A stretch of DNA of 64,000 nucleotides from Tahibacter aquaticus (GTDB lineage: Bacteria; Pseudomonadota; Gammaproteobacteria; Xanthomonadales; Rhodanobacteraceae): contig NZ_SNZH01000001.1 of assembly GCF_004363655.1 (NCBI RefSeq), forward strand, positions 54,569 through 118,568. Reading direction: 5' to 3'. A program made the translations under genes and the position numbers. Shown piece after piece: positions 39,973 through 51,403 of this stretch. The notes under the pieces are model-generated. The model had not been told where the DNA came from and ran no database searches. It worked only from the letters and a program-made list of their open reading frames with translations. Numbering within the stretch: position 1 is the stretch's first letter; each line of letters begins with the position of its first letter.

Positions 39973-40296
39973 TCAGTCCCAGCGATCGTCGCGCGTGAAC
40001 ACGGCGCCGTTTTCGGTCTTGACCGGAAACTTGGCGATGGGCTCGTACGCCGGCGGGCAGAGCACGGCGCCGCTGCGCAGGTCGAACCTGGCACCGTGGC
40101 GTATGCACTCGATGGTATAGCCCTCGACCGGGCCGCCGGCGAGTTCGCCGCCGTCATGGGTGCAGACATCTTCTACGGCGTACAGCTCGCCGTCGATATT
40201 GAACACGGCGATGGCGACATCGCCATCCCAGCCGATGCGGAATTCGCCGGGCAGCAGCTCGGCGGTGGCGCAGACGCGGATCCAGTTCTCGCTCAT
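39973..40296 (-). CDS. Rieske [2Fe-2S] ferredoxin
   Basis: This is a 107-aa stand-alone Rieske protein. C45-T-H47 and C64-x-x-H67 are the cluster ligands, in the usual VCTHDGG and CIRHGARFD contexts. It has no signal or TM segment, so it is cytosolic and resembles dioxygenase or NirD-type ferredoxins. It is the last clear gene of the SUF operon, 22 nt after the GNAT gene. Its place suggests a client of SUF assembly or an electron donor to it. The ATG at 40296 is chosen because the upstream part of the frame belongs to the GNAT gene's other strand phase. Confidence 0.92.
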   Translation of the reverse strand: MSENWIRVCATAELLPGEFRIGWDGDVAIAVFNIDGELYAVEDVCTHDGGELAGGPVEGYTIECIRHGARFDLRSGAVLCPPAYEPIAKFPVKTENGAVFTRDDRWD

Positions 40297-40318
40297 GGCG
40301 GCGGCGCGGCGAGAGGCT

Positions 40319-40873
40319 TCAGAGCCGCTTGGCCAGCACTTCGAACTGCAGGTCGTCGCGCTTGGGCAGGCCGAAGCGCGCGTCGCCGTAGGGGAAGGGC
40401 TTGAGCACGCCGGTGCGCACATAGCCGCGGCGTTCGTACCAGGCGATCAGGCTGTCGCGGATGGTGATCACGGTCATCTGCATTTCTGCGCAGTGCCATT
40501 CCACCGTGGCAATGCGTTCCGCCTCGGCCAGCACCAGCTTTCCGACGCCGCCGCCCTGCAGGCTGGGATCGACGGCGAACATGCCGAAATAGCCGATGTT
40601 GCGCCCCTGCTCCTGCAGCCGCTCGACATGGCAGCAGCACAGCAACTGGCCGTCGCGTTCGGCCAGCAGCACGCGGCTGTAGCCGCGTGCCAGCAATTCG
40701 GCGACAGAGCCCGGATCGGTGCGCTGACCATCGAGGAAGTCGGCTTCGGTCGTCCAGCCCTGCTTGCTCACGTCGCCGCGATAGGCCGACTCGACCAGGG
40801 CGACGATGGCATCGAGGTCGGCCACGGTGGCCGCGCGGAAGGTCAGCGGTGCAGATTCGGCAACAGCATTCAT
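40319..40873 (-). CDS. GNAT-family N-acetyltransferase
   Basis: This 184-aa protein has the acetyl-CoA loop DPSLQGGGVGKLVL (Q-x-x-G-x-G/A type), a FRAATVADLDAIVALVESAY start and a WYERRGYVRTG end, all standard for GNAT. It overlaps the sufU stop by 4 nt (ATGA), so it is translationally coupled to the SUF genes. The substrate is unknown. GNATs with this start are frequent near sufU in related genomes as far as I recall, but no role in cluster assembly is established. Confidence 0.88.
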   Translation of the reverse strand: MNAVAESAPLTFRAATVADLDAIVALVESAYRGDVSKQGWTTEADFLDGQRTDPGSVAELLARGYSRVLLAERDGQLLCCCHVERLQEQGRNIGYFGMFAVDPSLQGGGVGKLVLAEAERIATVEWHCAEMQMTVITIRDSLIAWYERRGYVRTGVLKPFPYGDARFGLPKRDDLQFEVLAKRL

Positions 40874-41316
40874 GCAGCGTCCTTTTCGGTTGTCGTATGC
40901 GCGTGGCCGGCCAGCGCCGCGGCCAGCGTAGCCCAGGGCAGCAGCGCACATTTGCGTCGCGCAGGATAGCGCGCCAGTTCGCCCAGCGCAGCGAGATCGC
41001 CCAGCGCCAGGCCAGCGGATTCGCCCTGCACCAGGGCCGTGAATTCCTGCTGCAGTGCGGCCAGCGCGGCCGCGTCCAGGCCTATTGCGCGCTCGCCCAG
41101 CAGCGAGGCGGTCGCCATGGCGATGGCGCAGCATTCGCCGCGGAAGGCGTAGTCGGCAATGCGGCCGTCGCGCAGCAGTATCTCGATCTGCAGCGAATCG
41201 CCGCACAGCGCATTCACGCCGTCGCAGCGATGGCTGGGCTGTTGCAGGCTGCCGAAACGGCGCGGCGCACGCTGGTGTGCCAGCACGATGTCGCGATACA
41301 GCGCCGGCGTGTCCAT
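40870..41316 (-). CDS. sufU: SufU-like iron-sulfur scaffold/sulfur-transfer protein
   Basis: This 148-aa protein has the start MDTPALYRDIVLAHQRAPRRFG. The metal/sulfur residues are C38-G-D40 (NALCGD), C63 (GECCAIAM) and C123 (RRKCALLPW). SufU accepts persulfide from SufS through a zinc-bound Cys. It stands where SufE would be in enterobacteria; no SufE or SufA is in the operon. The start is 2 nt after the sufS stop. Confidence 0.95.
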   Translation of the reverse strand: MDTPALYRDIVLAHQRAPRRFGSLQQPSHRCDGVNALCGDSLQIEILLRDGRIADYAFRGECCAIAMATASLLGERAIGLDAAALAALQQEFTALVQGESAGLALGDLAALGELARYPARRKCALLPWATLAAALAGHAHTTTEKDAA

Positions 41317-41318
41317 GC

Positions 41319-42545
41319 TCAGGCCAACAGGCGCCGGACCTTGTCCAGCGCGCGCACGAACGCATCGACTTCCTCGCGCGTGTTGTAGAACGCGAGCGAG
41401 GCGCGCGCCGTCGCCGGCACGCCGAAGAACTGCATCAGCGGATGCGCGCAGTGATGGCCCGAGCGCACGGCAACGCCTTCGTGGTCGAGCAGAGTGGCCA
41501 CGTCGTGCGCGTGCACGCCTTCGATCAGGAACGACATCACCGCCGCACGCTGGCGCGCGCGGCCGAACAGGCGCAGTCCGGGCACGCTCTGCAGTGCCTC
41601 GGTCGCATAGGCCAGCAGTTCCGCCTCGTACGCCTGGATGGCGGCAATGCCCACATTTTCCACATAGTCAATGGCGGCACCCAGGCCGATGAAGCCGGCG
41701 ATATTCGGCGTGCCTGCCTCGAACTTGTGCGGCGGATCGGCAAAGACCGTGCCGTCGAAACTGACCGTGCGGATCATCTCGCCGCCGCCGAAGAACGGCG
41801 GCATGGCGTCCAGGTGTTCGCGTTTCGCCCACAGTGCCCCGGTGCCGGTGGGGCCGAACAGCTTGTGCCCGGTCATGGCGTAGAAATCGCAGCCCAGCGC
41901 CTGCACATCGACGCGCTGGTGCGGACAGGCCTGCGAACCGTCGACCAGCAGCGGAATGCCGCGGGCGCGGCACAGCCGGGCGATCTCGGCCACCGGATTG
42001 ACCGTGCCAATCACGTTCGACACGTGCGCAACGGCGGCCAGCTTCACCTTCGGCGTCAGCATCGCCTCGAAGCGGTCCAGCAGCAGCTCGCCGTCGGCAC
42101 TGATCGGCGCGGCCTTGACGCTGGCGCCGCTGCGCGCCGCCACCAGCTGCCAGGGCACGATATTGGCGTGGTGCTCCATCTGCGTGACGAGGATTTCGTC
42201 ACCCGGCTGCAGCCGCGGCAGCGCGTAGCTGTAGGCGACCAGGTTGATGGCCTGGGTCGTACCGCTGGTCAGAACGAGCTGGTCGCGGCTGGGCACATTG
42301 AGAAAGCGCGCCAGCTTGTCGCGCGCACCTTCGTAGGCCGCCGTAGCCTGTTCGCCCAGGCTGTGCACGGCACGCGCGACGTTGGCGGTGTATTCGCGGT
42401 AATAGCCGTCCACTGCATCGACCACTGCCTGCGGTTTCTGCGCGGTATTGGCATTGTCGAAGTAGACCAGCGGCTTGCCGTGCACGCTGCGGCGCAATAC
42501 CGGAAAGTCGGCGCGCCAGCGTTGCGGATCGAAAGCAGAACTCAT
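41319..42545 (-). CDS. sufS: SufS-type cysteine desulfurase
   Basis: This 408-aa PLP enzyme turns cysteine into alanine and enzyme persulfide. Group-II hallmarks are YFDNANTAQKPQAVVDA, TSGTTQAINLVA, MEHHANIVPWQ, the PLP Lys in MTGHKLFGPTG, the active Cys in RSGHHCAHP, and the conserved GTPNIAG. It overlaps sufD by 4 nt. YFDNANTAQ (rather than the usual YLDNAATTQ) is a small variation. Confidence 0.97.
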   Translation of the reverse strand: MSSAFDPQRWRADFPVLRRSVHGKPLVYFDNANTAQKPQAVVDAVDGYYREYTANVARAVHSLGEQATAAYEGARDKLARFLNVPSRDQLVLTSGTTQAINLVAYSYALPRLQPGDEILVTQMEHHANIVPWQLVAARSGASVKAAPISADGELLLDRFEAMLTPKVKLAAVAHVSNVIGTVNPVAEIARLCRARGIPLLVDGSQACPHQRVDVQALGCDFYAMTGHKLFGPTGTGALWAKREHLDAMPPFFGGGEMIRTVSFDGTVFADPPHKFEAGTPNIAGFIGLGAAIDYVENVGIAAIQAYEAELLAYATEALQSVPGLRLFGRARQRAAVMSFLIEGVHAHDVATLLDHEGVAVRSGHHCAHPLMQFFGVPATARASLAFYNTREEVDAFVRALDKVRRLLA

Positions 42546-43840
42546 GCGGCTACCTCGGGCAGGCGGGCGGCGAGCAGCGCATCGATCTGTTCGCGCAAGG
42601 CGTCGTCATCCAGGTCGTCCAGCGCCACGCGGCAGAATGCCAGCGTCAGCAGAGTGCGCGCCTGCGCCTCGCCGACACCGCGGGAGCGCAGATAGAACAG
42701 CGCATTCGCATCGAGCTGGCCTACCGTCGCACCGTGGCTGGCCTGCACTTCATCGGCATGGATTTCCAGCACCGGCTGGGTATCGATTTCCGCATGTGGC
42801 GACAGCAGCAGGTTCTTGTTCGACAATTGTGCAGAAGTACCGTCGGCGCCGGCGCGGATCAGAATGCCGCCGTGGAAAACCGCTCGGCCACGGTCTGCAC
42901 CGAGGCCACGCCAGGTCAGCTCGCAGCGCGTATCGCGCGCGATGTGGTCTATGCCCAGGCGCGTATCCAGATGGCGCCGGCCGTCGGCCAGCAGCACGCC
43001 ATTGCTGCGCAGGCGCGCGCCGTTGCCCTGCAGCGCGATGTTCAGTTCATGCCGCGACAGTGCCGCACCCAGTTCGAGATCGGCACGCTGGTATTCCGCT
43101 GCGCCGGCGAGCACGCCTTCGGTGCGGGTGAACAGCGTCGCCGCCACGTCTTCGCACTGCACGCGCAGATGGCTCAGGCGCGCGCCGGGCTTGAGATGGA
43201 CATGGCAGAGCGAGTTGACCAGGTGCGCCTGCGCGCCGGCGGACAGCTGGTGCTCGACCAGGCGCAGGCTGGCGCCCTCGCCGATGTCCACCAGGTGGCG
43301 CAGATGGACAGCGATATCCGTCGTGGTCGGCGCACCGACCATGACGACGGTGACCGGCTGCTCGCAGCGCGTGCCGGCGGCGACGCGCAGTACCAGTCCG
43401 TCCAGTGCGAAGGCCGCATTGAGGCGCGCGAAGGTGTCGTCGCTGGCGTCGAAGCGCCGTGCGAGGTGAGCCAGATCGCGTGCGTCGGCGCCCAGCAAGG
43501 CCTGCGACAGCGGCAGCAGTTCCACCCCGGCCGGCAAGCCGTCCAGGCGCGAATGCGCGGCAGCGAAGACGCCGTTGACGAAGACCAGGCGCGGCCCCTC
43601 GCCCGCCGGCAACACAGCCGGATCGATCTCGGCCAGCGCCGCCGCCGTGACGAACGGGCGCCGTTCCAGCGCACGCAGCGGCGTATAGCGCCAGCGTTCC
43701 GCACGTGCCGTGGGCAAGCCGTCGGCCAGCGCCGCGGCGAGGTGGGTACGGCGCGATTCGCCCAGCTGCGCTGCCTGCAGCGCAGCTGCGGGCAGCTGTG
43801 CAAAAGCCTGTTCCAGACTGGCCAGCAACGGCACGCTCAT
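42542..43840 (-). CDS. sufD: SufD, FeS assembly scaffold subunit
   Basis: This is the 432-aa SufBC2D complex subunit. It has ERWRYTPLRALE near the N-terminus, a parallel beta-helix core, EIHADEVQASHGATVGQLDANALFYLRSRGV near the C-terminus (the SufD signature with the key His) and LAFCRVALDDL. It overlaps sufC and sufS by 4 nt each (ATGA both times), so the three are tightly coupled. Confidence 0.96.
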   Translation of the reverse strand: MSVPLLASLEQAFAQLPAAALQAAQLGESRRTHLAAALADGLPTARAERWRYTPLRALERRPFVTAAALAEIDPAVLPAGEGPRLVFVNGVFAAAHSRLDGLPAGVELLPLSQALLGADARDLAHLARRFDASDDTFARLNAAFALDGLVLRVAAGTRCEQPVTVVMVGAPTTTDIAVHLRHLVDIGEGASLRLVEHQLSAGAQAHLVNSLCHVHLKPGARLSHLRVQCEDVAATLFTRTEGVLAGAAEYQRADLELGAALSRHELNIALQGNGARLRSNGVLLADGRRHLDTRLGIDHIARDTRCELTWRGLGADRGRAVFHGGILIRAGADGTSAQLSNKNLLLSPHAEIDTQPVLEIHADEVQASHGATVGQLDANALFYLRSRGVGEAQARTLLTLAFCRVALDDLDDDALREQIDALLAARLPEVAA

Positions 43841-44604
43841 ACGCCGCTGCGCTCCGGCAGGCGGCGTTCTTCCAGCCAGGCATAGCCTTGCTGTTCCAGC
43901 TTGTGCGCCAGGCTCTTGTCGCCACTTTCCACAATGCGGCCTTCTGCCAGCACATGGACGTAGTCGGGCACGATGTAGTCGAGCAGGCGCTGGTAGTGCG
44001 TGATCACCACGAACGCGCGCTCGGCGCTGCGCATATGGTTGACGCCTTCGGCGACCATCTTCAGGGCGTCGATGTCCAGGCCCGAATCGGTTTCGTCGAG
44101 TATGGCCAGGCGCGGCTCCAGCAGGGCCATCTGGAAAATCTCGTTGCGCTTCTTCTCGCCGCCGGAAAAGCCCGAATTGACCGCGCGGTGCAGCAGGTCG
44201 TCGGAAATATGCAGCACGCGCAGTTTTTCCCGCACGAGCTTGAGGAACTGCATCGAATCCAGTTCGGCCTCGTTGCGGTATTTGCGCTGCGCATTCAGCG
44301 CCGCCTTGAGGAAATAGGTGTTGTTGACGCCGGGAATCTCCACCGGGTACTGGAAAGCGAGGAACAGGCCTTCGGCGGCACGCTCTTCCGGCTCCAGCTG
44401 CAGCAGATCCTTGTCGCCGAAATCGACCGTACCGGCAGTGATTTCATAGCCTTCGCGCCCGGCCAGCACATTGCCCAGGGTCGACTTGCCCGCGCCGTTC
44501 GGCCCCATGATCGCGTGCACTTCGCCCGGCTTTACCGTCAGGCTCAGGCCTTTGAGGATTTCCTTGCCCGCGACGCGGACGTGGAGGTTTTCGATTTTGA
44601 GCAT
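43837..44604 (-). CDS. sufC: SufC, FeS assembly ATPase
   Basis: This 255-aa ABC-type ATPase has the Walker A motif GPNGAGKSTLGNVLAG, the signature SGGEKKRNEIFQ and the Walker B motif LAILDETDSGLDIDALK. The ATG at 44604 is the start of the family (MLKIENLHVRVAGKEILKGL). It drives conformational change of SufB-SufD. It is separated from sufB by an extra gene, which is unusual. Confidence 0.97.
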   Translation of the reverse strand: MLKIENLHVRVAGKEILKGLSLTVKPGEVHAIMGPNGAGKSTLGNVLAGREGYEITAGTVDFGDKDLLQLEPEERAAEGLFLAFQYPVEIPGVNNTYFLKAALNAQRKYRNEAELDSMQFLKLVREKLRVLHISDDLLHRAVNSGFSGGEKKRNEIFQMALLEPRLAILDETDSGLDIDALKMVAEGVNHMRSAERAFVVITHYQRLLDYIVPDYVHVLAEGRIVESGDKSLAHKLEQQGYAWLEERRLPERSGV

Positions 44605-44658
44605 GTTAGTGTGGTATCTGCAATTCGATAGCGGAATTCGACGAAAAAGCCCGGCTGT

Positions 44659-45453
44659 TCATGCCGGACGCAATAGCGGTTCGAGTGCGGCAGGATTGGT
44701 GCGCTTGCCCAGAGCAAATCCCAGTTGGCGGAGCTCGCTCAGCACCATCGCCAACTCCGCCGGCTGCGGTCGCAACGGCACCAGCGCCTGAGCCAGCTTC
44801 GGATAGAAATGGCGACGCAGGAACCGGTTCTTGGCCAGATGCCCCTGCACCAGCACGGCAACGAAGGAAGCTAGACCAATGGCGGCGAGAAACATAGGCA
44901 TCAATTCCTTGGCATCGCCGACCAGGAACAGGTCGAACAGCCAGAAAGCGCCGATAGGTACGGCGATGGCGGCCGCGATGGTCAACAGCAGCGGCAGATC
45001 GATATGGGTAGATTCGAAAGCCCGTTCGACAGCAGGCGCGAGGATCAGGAAAGGTTCCTTGATCAGGTGCTTGCGAGTAGCCGTGTCGATCACAGCATTG
45101 CCACGCCTGAGATCCTGTTCCAATTCGAGACGGCGCGCATAGCGCTCGGCCAATTCGGGATTAGTTGCGCGAATCAAATGACTGATCTGGTTCGATTCTG
45201 GCACCCGCTCCAGCGGATAGTCCTTGGCGATGTTGCTGTAGGCTTCGTGTTCGGCACCGAGCACGGTCTTACAGGTCAGGCAGAAACGTTCGAATCCAGC
45301 CAATTTGCCACCGCCGACGGAAACTCCATAGACATGACCGGCCATGCCGATACGACTCAGGCGAAAAGCCCGCGGACTACGGCACAGAGGGCAAAAATCG
45401 GCCACATAGCCGAGCCTCTTCTGTACACGCTTGGTACCCCAGAAAATGAACAA
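44659..45453 (-). CDS. Zinc-ribbon two-TM protein inserted in the SUF operon
   Basis: I do not recognise this 264-aa protein. It has two CxxC pairs (C21/C24 in CPLC and C58/C61 in CLTC) that suggest a zinc ribbon, a charged middle part (LELEQDLRRGNAVIDTATRKHLIKEP) and two TM helices (about 153-177 and 184-204) with a basic cytosolic tail. The start is TTG at 45453, with GGGGGGA just upstream; no ATG fits. It lies 63 nt after sufB and 54 nt before sufC on the same strand, breaking the normally adjacent sufBC pair. It may bind metal or tether the SUF complex to the membrane, or be an unrelated passenger. Confidence 0.8.
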   Translation of the reverse strand: MFIFWGTKRVQKRLGYVADFCPLCRSPRAFRLSRIGMAGHVYGVSVGGGKLAGFERFCLTCKTVLGAEHEAYSNIAKDYPLERVPESNQISHLIRATNPELAERYARRLELEQDLRRGNAVIDTATRKHLIKEPFLILAPAVERAFESTHIDLPLLLTIAAAIAVPIGAFWLFDLFLVGDAKELMPMFLAAIGLASFVAVLVQGHLAKNRFLRRHFYPKLAQALVPLRPQPAELAMVLSELRQLGFALGKRTNPAALEPLLRPA

Positions 45454-45516
45454 GATATTCCCCCCGGTTGTTCGATTCGGACGAACGCAACGCAGGACAG
45501 CCGGAAAAGGCCCCGG

Positions 45517-46956
<1,440 letters not shown>

Positions 46957-46975
46957 TAGGCTGCCTAGTAGTTCT

Positions 46976-47425
46976 TCATGCCAGGGCGACGCGCAACGGC
47001 GTCGGCACAGGGCGCTTGGGCCCTGGCGGTTTCATCATATCGGCGAGGCTGACACTGGCCAGCGCGTCGGCAATGGCCTGGTTGATGCGTTGCCAGTTGC
47101 CGCGCACGCCACAATGGTGTTCGTGGCCGCAAAGGCCGCTGGTCACGCTGCATTCGGTCATGCCGATCGGCCCTTCCATCGCCACCACGATCTCGGCCAC
47201 CGAGATGGATTCCGGAGCACGGCCAATGCGGTAGCCGCCGTTAACGCCGCGGAACGACTCGACCAGGCCGGCATGTCCGAGTTGCTTGAGCAGCTTGGAC
47301 ACCGTGGGGATTTCCAGCCTGGCCCGCTCAGCCAGTACCTGGGCGCTGAGCACGTCGTTGCCGGCCTCGGCAAGGACAGTCATCACCACGGTGGCATAGT
47401 CGGTAAGCTTGCTGACGCGAAGCAT
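46976..47425 (-). CDS. Rrf2-family SUF regulator
   Basis: This 149-aa regulator begins [19 protein letters not shown], typical of the Gram-negative SUF-type Rrf2 proteins. A winged helix runs to about residue 70 ([28 protein letters not shown]). Cluster ligands C92, C99 and C105 lie in the [14 protein letters not shown] segment. It is expected to bind a [2Fe-2S] cluster and repress the operon when clusters are abundant. The ATG at 47425 is chosen over a longer frame because family proteins start there. Confidence 0.93.
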
Positions 47426-47445
47426 GAAGGGGGCCGGAGGGAAAG

Positions 47446-47462
47446 CGTACCGAAATGGTACG
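47446..47462. promoter_or_regulatory. Palindrome before the SUF regulator, putative operator
   Basis: CGTACC (47446-47451) and GGTACG (47457-47462) form a perfect dyad with a 5-nt spacer, 21 nt before the regulator ATG. Its place fits autoregulation by the Rrf2 protein. It does not match the IscR type 1 consensus well. Confidence 0.6.
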
Positions 47463-47552
47463 GTTTTGCGGCCAGGCGGGTCAATTCGCCCTGTGCGGCA
47501 TAGGCAGGCCACGGCCAAGACGCAAGCCTGGCGCCATTGCCGGCAACGGAAA

Positions 47553-47576
47553 ACGCCGGGCCTGGCGGCCGGGCGT
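47553..47576 (-). terminator. Hairpin after the secreted propeller gene
   Basis: ACGCCGGGCC (47553-47562) and GGCCGGGCGT (47567-47576) pair with one mismatch around TGGC. On the minus strand TTTTCC follows. It lies 58 nt past the stop at 47635. Confidence 0.7.
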
Positions 47577-47634
47577 CTAAGTTATCAATCGACTGCGCGA
47601 ATGGCCCGGCCCGGCAGCACCAGGCCGACCGCGC

Positions 47635-49020
47635 TCAAGGCGAGCCGCCGTCCGGCAATTGCTGCTGAAACGGCCGATAGGTGAACCAGGTCAGGAAAAC
47701 CAGACCATTGCCGTCGGTATCCAGCACGAAGCCTTCGCCGTCACGGCTGGGCCCGCCATACCAGGCGCCTTGCAGCCAGCTGCTGTCCGGCGTGCCGGCG
47801 ATGCCGGTGCGCTGGCAGGCAGCGACTTGCGGGTTGCTCAGATTGCGCTGGATGCGGTAGCCGCCGCTGCCGAAATTGCCGGAATCCTCACCCGTCGAGG
47901 TCCAGCGCATTTCCGCTTCGGTGCAACTGAGGAAGTTCAGCGAAATCGAGCCCCAGCGCGGCTTGGTCACAAAGCTGGGATCGAAATCCTCGCCGAAACT
48001 GCCACCGACTGCGGTATGCGCCTCCATGTCCACTGTTGTGCCGGACAGGCGGCCCAGCGCAGTCACCCAGTACTGCGAGCCGAGCACGCGGGCATTGGGC
48101 TGCGGGTCCGGGTCCAGCCCCGACAGCACGACGGCGATATAGGTCGGGCCGGACAGGCCGCCAGCCCCTACCCGAATGAACAGCGACTTCTCCTCGCCGG
48201 TTTCCGCATCGATCTTGAGCACGCCCGACCCCATGCTGCCGCTGCCGGCGACCAGCAAGGTGGTGGGGTCGAACCAGGCAATGCCCGTCGGCGTGTTGAT
48301 GCTGGTGCTGATCACCTTGTCCAGGGTGCCGCTGGGATAGTTGTAGCGCAGGATCTGGTTGGACCGCTCGCCCGTCACATACAGCTTGGTCGCGTCCAGC
48401 GACAGCAGCAGGCCGCGGGTGGCGCGCAGGCCGTCGGCACGCGGCGCGACCAGTTGCCGGTAGCTGCGCGTGGCCAGATTGAAACCCACGACATTGTTGC
48501 TGTCGTAGCCGGGAATCAGCAGTTCGCCCTGCGGTGCGTAGATCAGGCCGTTGTCCGGCCCCTTGAGCAGGCTGAGCCCGGCCAGCGGCATGTTTTCGCT
48601 GGCGCCTGTGGCGATGCTGTAGCGGCGCAGCGCACTGGTCGAATAGCTGCCCAGATACACGTCTCCGTCGTTCGTAAAGGCCAGGCCGGTCACGCCGAAC
48701 GGCGCGCCGACGCTGGCGAAGGTGTCGGAAAACGCCAGCGTCTTCAGGTCGTAGCGCAGTATCGTGCCGGCGCCCTCGCTGACCACCCACAGCTTGCCGT
48801 CCGGCCCGGCCTTGACGGCCTGGGCGCCCTGGATACGGCCGCTGTCGTCCAGATTGCGCAGGAATTGCCCGGTGCAGGCATCATAGACATGCACATTGCT
48901 GTAATAGCCACTGACCAGGACACGGACGCCCTTGCAGTCCTGTGCCTGTGCGCACGAAAGGAAGAGAAACAGTGAAATCAGGACCGCCCAACGCCCCAGC
49001 CCATTGCCTGTGTTGCTCAT
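47635..49020 (-). CDS. Secreted NHL/SMP-30-like beta-propeller protein
   Basis: This 461-aa exported protein has a signal peptide of residues 1-27 (LFLFLSCAQAQ), so the ATG at 49020 is preferred to the longer frame. Propeller-like blades follow (AVKAGPDGKLWVVSEGAGTILRYD, GLAFTNDGDVYLGSYSTSALRRY, LLSLDATKLYVTGERSNQILRY). The C-terminal 100 residues hold Cys pairs and end in WYGGPSRDGEGFVLD...LVFLTWFTY, a tail I associate with secreted proteins of Xanthomonadales. No catalytic residues are evident. It is divergent from the CadC-like gene. Confidence 0.75.
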   Translation of the reverse strand: MSNTGNGLGRWAVLISLFLFLSCAQAQDCKGVRVLVSGYYSNVHVYDACTGQFLRNLDDSGRIQGAQAVKAGPDGKLWVVSEGAGTILRYDLKTLAFSDTFASVGAPFGVTGLAFTNDGDVYLGSYSTSALRRYSIATGASENMPLAGLSLLKGPDNGLIYAPQGELLIPGYDSNNVVGFNLATRSYRQLVAPRADGLRATRGLLLSLDATKLYVTGERSNQILRYNYPSGTLDKVISTSINTPTGIAWFDPTTLLVAGSGSMGSGVLKIDAETGEEKSLFIRVGAGGLSGPTYIAVVLSGLDPDPQPNARVLGSQYWVTALGRLSGTTVDMEAHTAVGGSFGEDFDPSFVTKPRWGSISLNFLSCTEAEMRWTSTGEDSGNFGSGGYRIQRNLSNPQVAACQRTGIAGTPDSSWLQGAWYGGPSRDGEGFVLDTDGNGLVFLTWFTYRPFQQQLPDGGSP

Positions 49021-49141
49021 ATCGATGCTCCTCGCACTACGGTGAGGCTGCAGCGTGGCGACGGGCGCGCGGCGGCGTCCTGCGCAACACCTTCGCCAGC
49101 TGTGCGCAAAACCGCGGCCCTTTGCAATCAGTCGCTTACGC

Positions 49142-51403
49142 ATGATTGGCGGCGCAAACTCCACTCCCGACGCCGTGCCCCTGCGCTTCCGCCTGGGCGA
49201 ATGGCTGGTCGATGCGCCCAATCACGAACTCATCGCCGCTGCCGGCCGCGTACGCCTGCAGCCACGACAGATGCAATTGCTGCTGCGCCTGGCGCGCGAA
49301 GCGGGCCAGGTGGTACGCCGCGAACAACTGCTGGAAGACGTCTGGGAAGGCCGCTACGTCAATGACGAAGCCCTGTCCCGCGCCATGGCCGAGCTGCGCC
49401 AGCTGCTGGCCGACGACCCGCGCTCGCCGCGCTATATCGAGACCGTGCCCAAGCTGGGCTACCGGCTGATTACCCTGCCGCAGAGCGATGCCGCGCCCGC
49501 AGTTTCCGCAACATCGCCGATATCCGCCAAGGCAGCCGGCAGCGACCCGGGGCTGGACGCGAGCGGTCTGCCGCGTACCGATCCGCGCCTGCAGCGGCGC
49601 ACTTTCACCACCAGCCTGATCGTCGGCGGCGTCGTTGTCGCCCTGGTCGCCTTGCTCGCGCTGACCCTGCCGCAGCCGCCCGGCGCCGATCACGCCGCCG
49701 CCGACCTGCGCGGCCGCGTCGATCGCGCCCGGCCGTTCGCGCTGGAACCCGGCTTCGACCAGAGTGCACGCTTTTCCCGCGACGGCCACTGGATAGCCTG
49801 GTCGGCGTCCGATCCGGAACTGGGCCGTGCGCATATCTGGATCGGCTCGCGCGACAGCCAGACCCGGCGCGTCCTCAGCGAAGGCACCGCCTGGGACATG
49901 TCGCCCGTATTCGTCGACGGCGACAGCAGCGTGATCTTCCTGCGCTACACCGCCAACAGCTGCGAGCTGCGCGAACAGAAAGTCATCGCCAGCCAGTCGC
50001 GCCTGATCGGCAGCTGCGCGCCGCCGCCGACGACCAGCCGCATCGATGTGTCGCCCGACGGACGCCAGGTCGTGTTCGCCCAGAGCGTCGGCCCCGGCCG
50101 TACCGGCCTGGCCCTGCTGGAACGTGCCAGCGGCAAGGTCAGCACATTGACCGATCCCGGCGATCTGGCCCTGACCGACCAGAACCCGCGTTTTTCCAGC
50201 GACGGCAGCCAGTTGGTCTTCACGCGCGGCCAGCACAGCCAGCAGCGTCTGTGGCTGTTGCCGCTGTCGGCGCCGGCACGGGCGCGCATGCTGGTCGACG
50301 CAAGCGGCCTGCTGTACGGGGCTGCCTGGCTGCCCGGCGATACCGCCGTGATACTGGCCGGCGACCTGTTCGGCTATCGCGCGCTGTACCGGGCCGACTC
50401 AGCCACCGGCGCACTGGAATTCCTCGGCGCGCGCGGCGCGCGCTATCCCGATGTCGCCGGTGACGGCGCACTGCTTTACGAAGTGGCCGACTACCAGGCC
50501 AATCTCTGGCGCGCCGACCTGCGCGATCCACACGCCGCGCCGCAGCCGATCACCCAGTCGCAGCGCTACAACAACCAGCCATTCTTTGCGCCGGATGCGA
50601 GCCGGCTGGCTTTTGCCTCCAACCGCGACGGCCTGGAAGCGCTGTACCTGGCCCAGCCGGACGGCAGCGGCGTGCAGCGGCTGGCGCTGGACCCGGGCCA
50701 GCGCTGGGTGCGGCCAAGCTGGCATCCGAACGGCGACCGCCTGCTGGTCACGGCGATCCTCAATCGCAGCAACGGCACCGAATGCCTGCCCTATGCCTGC
50801 AGCAGCGAGCATAGCGCCATGTTCCTGTACGACCTGGCCGCGCACCGGGCCGAGCCGGTGCCAGGACTGGGCACTGATGCGCGTTACGGCCAGTACAGCA
50901 GCGACGGCAGCGCGATCTACTTCCTGCGCCGCGGCAACGAGCGCGACCAGCTCTGGCGCGCCGCCGCCGACGGCAGCGGTGCGCGCCTGGTCCTCGACGC
51001 CAATGTGGAAAACTTCACCCTCGACGAGCAGCACCTCGTCGTCGACGTGGCCACCGAAGCCGGCCTGCGCCTGTGCAACCTGGACGGCAAGAGCTGCCGC
51101 GTCATCCTGGACAAGGCCGAACTCTCCGGCGCCATGCCCGACAACACCTACGCGGTACTGCGCAACGGTGCACTGCTGTTTGTCGCCCGCGACAGCGACG
51201 GCAAGCGCCATCTGCAGCGCTACGACATCGCCAGCGGCCGCATCGTCGAACTGCTCGCCGATGCACCCACTACCTTCGCGCCAGCAGTAGACCTCAGCCC
51301 CGACGGACGCTGGCTGGTGTATGCGCGCAACGACCGCGTCGTGATCGACCTGTATCTGGGCGAGACGCGCGCGCCCGCCGGCCCCGCAGCTGCAACGCAC
51401 TGA
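49142..51403 (+). CDS. CadC-like membrane transcription regulator with PD40 propeller
   Basis: This 753-aa one-component sensor has an OmpR-type winged helix (about 12-112; LRLAREAGQVVRREQLLEDVWEG, AELRQLLADDPRSPRYIETVPKLGYRL). A Ser/Pro-rich linker is followed by one TM helix (156-177) and a periplasmic WD40/PD40 (TolB-like) propeller with repeated SPDGRQVVFA, SSDGSQLVFTRG and APDASRLAFASNRDG blades. The signal is unknown. The gene is 13 nt before amgK, so it may sense cell-wall turnover products or simply be co-transcribed with their recycling genes. The ATG at 49142 is selected because the DNA-binding domain starts soon after it. Confidence 0.9.
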   Translation: MIGGANSTPDAVPLRFRLGEWLVDAPNHELIAAAGRVRLQPRQMQLLLRLAREAGQVVRREQLLEDVWEGRYVNDEALSRAMAELRQLLADDPRSPRYIETVPKLGYRLITLPQSDAAPAVSATSPISAKAAGSDPGLDASGLPRTDPRLQRRTFTTSLIVGGVVVALVALLALTLPQPPGADHAAADLRGRVDRARPFALEPGFDQSARFSRDGHWIAWSASDPELGRAHIWIGSRDSQTRRVLSEGTAWDMSPVFVDGDSSVIFLRYTANSCELREQKVIASQSRLIGSCAPPPTTSRIDVSPDGRQVVFAQSVGPGRTGLALLERASGKVSTLTDPGDLALTDQNPRFSSDGSQLVFTRGQHSQQRLWLLPLSAPARARMLVDASGLLYGAAWLPGDTAVILAGDLFGYRALYRADSATGALEFLGARGARYPDVAGDGALLYEVADYQANLWRADLRDPHAAPQPITQSQRYNNQPFFAPDASRLAFASNRDGLEALYLAQPDGSGVQRLALDPGQRWVRPSWHPNGDRLLVTAILNRSNGTECLPYACSSEHSAMFLYDLAAHRAEPVPGLGTDARYGQYSSDGSAIYFLRRGNERDQLWRAAADGSGARLVLDANVENFTLDEQHLVVDVATEAGLRLCNLDGKSCRVILDKAELSGAMPDNTYAVLRNGALLFVARDSDGKRHLQRYDIASGRIVELLADAPTTFAPAVDLSPDGRWLVYARNDRVVIDLYLGETRAPAGPAAATH

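Follow-up and report, generated by a model that had tools for sequence, protein, structure and literature searches.

Genes inserted singly into operons are generally recognised by foreign composition, placement on the operon's strand and patchy presence among relatives. These properties are shared by a gene, here called X, at positions 44659-45453 of a 64,000-nt stretch of the Tahibacter aquaticus genome (the window; "family" and "genus" below are those of the window genome), where it lies between sufB and sufC. Unlike single-gene insertions in general, the case described here involves one junction that takes many unrelated genes and a next junction that takes none. The SUF accessory genes sufA, sufE, sufU and sufT (names taken partly from PMC8593673 and partly from general knowledge) offer a second comparison, as X is similarly located inside a suf operon; in contrast to those genes, its relatives are not found beside sufB or sufC (0/8). 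In protein sequence, X has in common with Zn_ribbon_15 (PF17032) and MIIWG-type proteins an MxxWG start and a CPxC...CxxC ribbon, whereas its helical middle, transmembrane (TM) hairpin and basic C-terminal tail are its own and are conserved across the X family.

We conclude that X is very probably a horizontally acquired single-gene passenger in a sufB-sufC junction that repeatedly takes unrelated same-strand genes. This reading is based on the rarity of X, relatives that lack a suf context, an odd composition, the absence of inserts from the sufC-sufD junction, and a strong ribosome site belonging to X itself. Since related bacteria carry many unrelated passengers at the same spot, X is most likely a hitchhiker, as opposed to a new part of the SUF machine. 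It would have entered the junction horizontally as a single gene, would be read from the suf transcript and translated independently via its own Shine-Dalgarno sequence, and would in this way gain expression without serving SUF.

Inserts at the sufB-sufC junction

The junction was measured in 124 family genomes, out of 223 having sufB and sufC, and was scored as split when the sufB-sufC gap exceeded 300 bp; contents were retrieved for 82 gaps larger than 290 bp. A gene-sized insert split the junction in 80/124 genomes, and the statement in a first-pass annotation of this DNA that sufBC adjacency is the rule therefore fails in this family. The sufB-X-sufC arrangement, for which that annotation had proposed a synteny survey of related genomes, occurs only in the window genome (1/124 junctions). 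The inserts in the 82 gaps are same-strand genes of eleven kinds besides X, with two inserts in some gaps and five gaps left unlabelled. They were named by Pfam scans of representatives combined with clustering, and not by a scan of every protein, as follows:

LprI-type, 22 genomes
S-adenosylmethionine (SAM) methyltransferase, 20 genomes
ACT-domain protein, 19 genomes
GNAT, 11 genomes
Lipoprotein-like group, 6 genomes
DUF4160, 4 genomes
Second GNAT type, 2 genomes
Two unnamed groups with no Pfam match, 2 genomes each
X, lipocalin-like lipoprotein and nucleotidyltransferase-like protein, one genome each

As a control, gaps were compared in 85 genomes carrying sufB, sufC and sufD on one contig. 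Gaps larger than 300 bp were found at sufB-sufC in 56/85 and at sufC-sufD in 0/85, although the control genomes are related and these figures do not count independent events. Among the seven junctions measured in the genus, five were without a gene, one held a lipocalin-like gene (genome G005) and one held X. Many of the inserted open reading frames (ORFs) begin on the sufB stop codon (18/20 methyltransferase ORFs and 13/23 LprI ORFs), which suggests that these two kinds of insert are translationally coupled to sufB; X, by contrast, begins 63 nt beyond sufB and has a strong Shine-Dalgarno sequence. Among the papers listed by the library searched, none on interrupted suf operons, operon insertion hotspots or Xanthomonas suf organisation dealt with this insertion spot.

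Two further observations were made at this junction. Nineteen of the 22 measured genomes of genus g11 have a 421-433 bp gap that holds an ACT-domain gene, and some passengers therefore become fixed in a genus. Gene-free gaps at loci L013 and L016 contain, as judged by eye, inverted repeats resembling repetitive extragenic palindromic (REP) sequences or miniature inverted-repeat transposable elements (MITEs), and the spot may also accept small repeat elements of this sort.

Distribution and origin of X

Eight full-length relatives of X were identified: five in the family (G020, G026, G106, G134 and G179), one in the order (G1069), one in the class (G924), and one, 45% identical and found by scanning genome contigs, on a contig labelled Nitrospiria bacterium (L005). 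X-type proteins are encoded by 6/233 family, 4/299 order, 1/369 class (the window genome itself) and 3/349 phylum genomes, the last comprising the window genome, one full-length and one ribbon-only case; these four samples overlap. Within the genus, X is present in 1/8 genomes. Among the six X-bearing family genomes only the window genome has X at suf, as the other five carry it on contigs other than that of sufB, and tblastn detected neither sufB nor sufC in the loci of G924, G1069 and L005 (3.7, 3.7 and 12.7 kb). No relative was found in the plasmids, phages and viral contigs searched. A G007 match inside a 1007-aa frame (residues 81-203, 29%, E 0.006) was not accepted as a true relative, and one in G747 covers the ribbon only and hence stands outside the eight.

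The composition of X differs from that of its surroundings. Its GC content, 0.585, is the lowest of 41 window ORFs (mean of the others 0.668, sd 0.030), and its third-position GC content, 0.667 against 0.814 (sd 0.053), is the second lowest, as is its codon fit; the 41 ORFs were picked mechanically and may include some that are not genes. In a nine-row tree, X pairs with the L005 homologue, from a Nitrospiria metagenome-assembled genome (MAG), with support of 96/93 and apart from the family's own copies. A recent arrival, one of two possibilities raised in the first-pass annotation, is thus supported by the presence of X at suf in one of seven measured genus junctions, by the lowest GC of 41 ORFs, and by a nearest relative whose contig carries the label of another phylum. 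Restriction of the insertion to this strain and different codon use, which the annotation had listed as adverse to its proposal, were both found in the genomes examined.

Several points weigh against horizontal acquisition of a passenger. The tree has nine rows and long branches, and the Nitrospiria MAG contig may be misbinned. Neither a mobile element, nor an attachment site, nor flanking direct repeats (sought in 44540-45620) were found; an acquired single-gene insertion often shows a mobile element or a duplicated site, but need not. The low GC of X could partly reflect membrane-protein composition, its intact state and alignment with the operon are compatible with a selected local role, and of the 223 family genomes having both genes, the junction measurements cover only 124.

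The neighbours of the relatives vary: an M48 peptidase in G106 and G924, a rhomboid protein in L005, Hsp70 and a Sel1/DnaJ protein in G020, and a C39 ABC exporter in G026. In G1069 the relative (L124, 9160-10128) lies in a type VI secretion system (T6SS) cluster, on the strand opposite to VasE- and VgrG-type genes. The M48-type peptidases that adjoin two relatives are large, 995 and 1276 aa (L123, 5618-8605; L125, 3195-7025), and the matched G924 copy contains an in-frame TAG.

The X gene, its product and its expression signals

The suf genes and the features of X, listed in the direction of transcription, are:

46976..47518, minus strand, Rrf2-type SUF regulator, Xanthomonas type (TIGR02944; NCBIfam)
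45517..46956, minus strand, sufB (NCBIfam)
45458..45465, minus strand, Shine-Dalgarno sequence of X, GGGGGGAA (20-nt leader duplex energy -9.4 kcal/mol)
44659..45453, minus strand, X, gene for a zinc-ribbon, two-TM protein of 264 aa with a TTG start (ORF, alignment and hydropathy)
45250..45453, minus strand, N-terminal MFIFWG...CPLC...CLTC zinc-ribbon region, residues 1-68 (cysteine alignment and hhalign)
44848..44991, minus strand, TM hairpin, residues 155-202, with a short acidic loop and basic flanks on both sides (Kyte-Doolittle and charge counts)
44649..44669, minus strand, terminator-like hairpin across the X stop codon, followed by U5 (terminator scan and fold)
44605..44624, minus strand, sufC leader without a Shine-Dalgarno sequence (duplex energy +0.4 kcal/mol)
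43837..44604, minus strand, sufC (NCBIfam)
42542..43840, minus strand, sufD (NCBIfam)
41319..42545, minus strand, sufS (NCBIfam)
40870..41316, minus strand, sufU (NCBIfam; the sole IscU-like match of the genome)

The order on the minus strand is thus regulator, sufB, X, sufC, sufD, sufS, sufU. By ORF coordinates, sufC/sufD and sufD/sufS each overlap by 4 nt, in keeping with the tightly packed operon described in the first-pass annotation; that description does not extend to the surroundings of X, which is separated from sufB by 63 nt and from sufC by 54 nt. The same annotation was correct in placing an unknown same-strand gene between sufB and sufC and in assigning it a TTG start, a position supported by all seven aligned homologues (7/7), which begin at the same residue and have WG at positions 5-6. 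The frame is not a chance one, as full-length homologues occur in eight other genomes or contigs. Beyond sufU, the operon seems to continue with GNAT-like and Rieske-ferredoxin-like ORFs (39973-41365, minus strand; translations judged by eye).

For the protein alignment X was combined with six of its eight full-length relatives, giving seven rows. Both CxxC pairs noticed at first pass, C21/C24 and C58/C61, are invariant in 7/7 members. The two TM helices were likewise recovered, at 155-173 and 184-202, with the second falling below the 1.5 Kyte-Doolittle cut in one of seven members (L005). Because the TM segments have basic flanks and a short acidic joining loop, both termini of X are predicted to face the cytoplasm, a topology call that follows the positive-inside rule.

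With a cut at E<=0.1, X could be assigned to no family in Pfam (best E 0.19) or NCBIfam (best E 0.21). PDB sequences, PADLOC and PHROGs likewise supplied none, the last two leaving X without a match to a known defence or phage protein. A direct search with PF17032 left X unmatched; 3/7 members of its family match under the 28.9-bit gathering cut-off, with a best E of 0.14. The hallmark of Zn_ribbon_15, an MxxWG start followed by two CxxC pairs, is nevertheless present and invariant in 7/7 members, and hhalign aligned residues 2-77 of X with two MIIWG-type ribbon proteins over 76 columns (probability 96.8%, E 2e-10); both of those proteins match PF17032 below its cut-off. A structure model built from two sequences was poor (mean predicted local distance difference test score, pLDDT, 53.5), and no conclusion rests on it.

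Among seven starts tested in the suf operon, none has a stronger leader than X (-9.4 kcal/mol), in agreement with the strong ribosome site reported earlier. A scan for sigma-70 consensus promoters, the only type sought, found no promoter-like site inside X or directly before sufC, and Rfam gave no match in 40000-50000.

Alternative readings and the nature of the junction

The other possibility raised at first pass was a membrane-linked SUF factor. As such an accessory protein, X might hold SufBC2D at the membrane or hand clusters over to Fe-S proteins located there. X is intact, lies on the same strand between sufB and sufC, and combines a zinc ribbon with a membrane anchor, as such a factor might. 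A recurrent association with suf is, however, not seen: 0/8 full-length relatives are beside sufB or sufC, X occupies 1/124 junctions, and sufB is present in 223/233 family genomes compared with 6/233 for X. The same spot in relatives carries methyltransferase, LprI, ACT and GNAT genes. We consider an accessory role in SUF very improbable.

As part of the passenger reading we tentatively favour, for the protein itself, a membrane-anchored zinc-ribbon adaptor: X may be fixed in the inner membrane with its two termini in the cytoplasm and use its zinc ribbon to bind other proteins, which might be membrane proteases. A separate proposal is that X works with membrane proteases, or with some other machine of the envelope, as their partner or adaptor; its suf location would then be incidental, and this is compatible with X being a passenger. 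Three of the eight relatives adjoin a protease gene (the large M48 peptidase in G106 and G924, the rhomboid in L005), which is suggestive, and an M48 protein is found in 3/8 X-bearing genomes versus 2/22 X-free genomes tested. The window genome lacks such an M48 protein, and for this reason the link is kept only as a weak rival; moreover, the remaining relatives have other neighbours (Hsp70/DnaJ, the C39 ABC exporter, the T6SS cluster) or no clear partner. Such a partnership is on balance unlikely. Somewhat less likely still is an effect in cis, in which the X segment dampens sufCDSU through the terminator-like hairpin at its stop codon and the missing sufC Shine-Dalgarno sequence. The sufC leader reads CGGAA, at -3.5 kcal/mol, in 5/5 empty-site congeners, compared with +0.4 in the window genome and also in G005, which has the other insert. 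The hairpin folds at -13.3 kcal/mol, but with z-scores of only -1.94 for a 41-nt and -0.79 for a 76-nt segment, and terminator-like sites in the scanned region are about as numerous as chance gives (4 found, 3.6 expected). As the median sufC leader energy over all 82 insert loci is -3.0, most inserts do not cause loss of the sufC Shine-Dalgarno sequence.

A search for IscU-like proteins in the genome returned only SufU, scoring under the IscU cut-off, and the cell therefore probably has no general Fe-S scaffold system besides SUF. The suf operon is thus likely to be needed by the cell, and it is in such an operon that X, read as a passenger, would have settled. A broader proposal, to which we give an even chance, is that the non-overlapping junction is a standing "parking bay", in which single accessory genes of different sources are repeatedly dropped, gain regulated expression, and in time either give way to others or become coupled to sufB through a stop-start overlap. 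On this view X would have arrived freshly and would represent a family, so far undescribed, of zinc-ribbon adaptors anchored in the membrane.

These results clear away a false lead, the supposed SUF membrane factor; of more interest than X itself is the insertion spot, which is recurrent and specific to one junction. The results raise the question of why one junction of a core operon collects unrelated genes and the next one none. Should passengers parked there adopt suf regulation, the junction would offer a natural experiment on operon gene gain.

The X family also provides a new target for work on uncharacterised MxxWG zinc-ribbon proteins. On the L005 contig (6001-8191), a second ribbon protein, with an MIIYG start, is encoded downstream of the X relative at a distance of approximately 760 bp.
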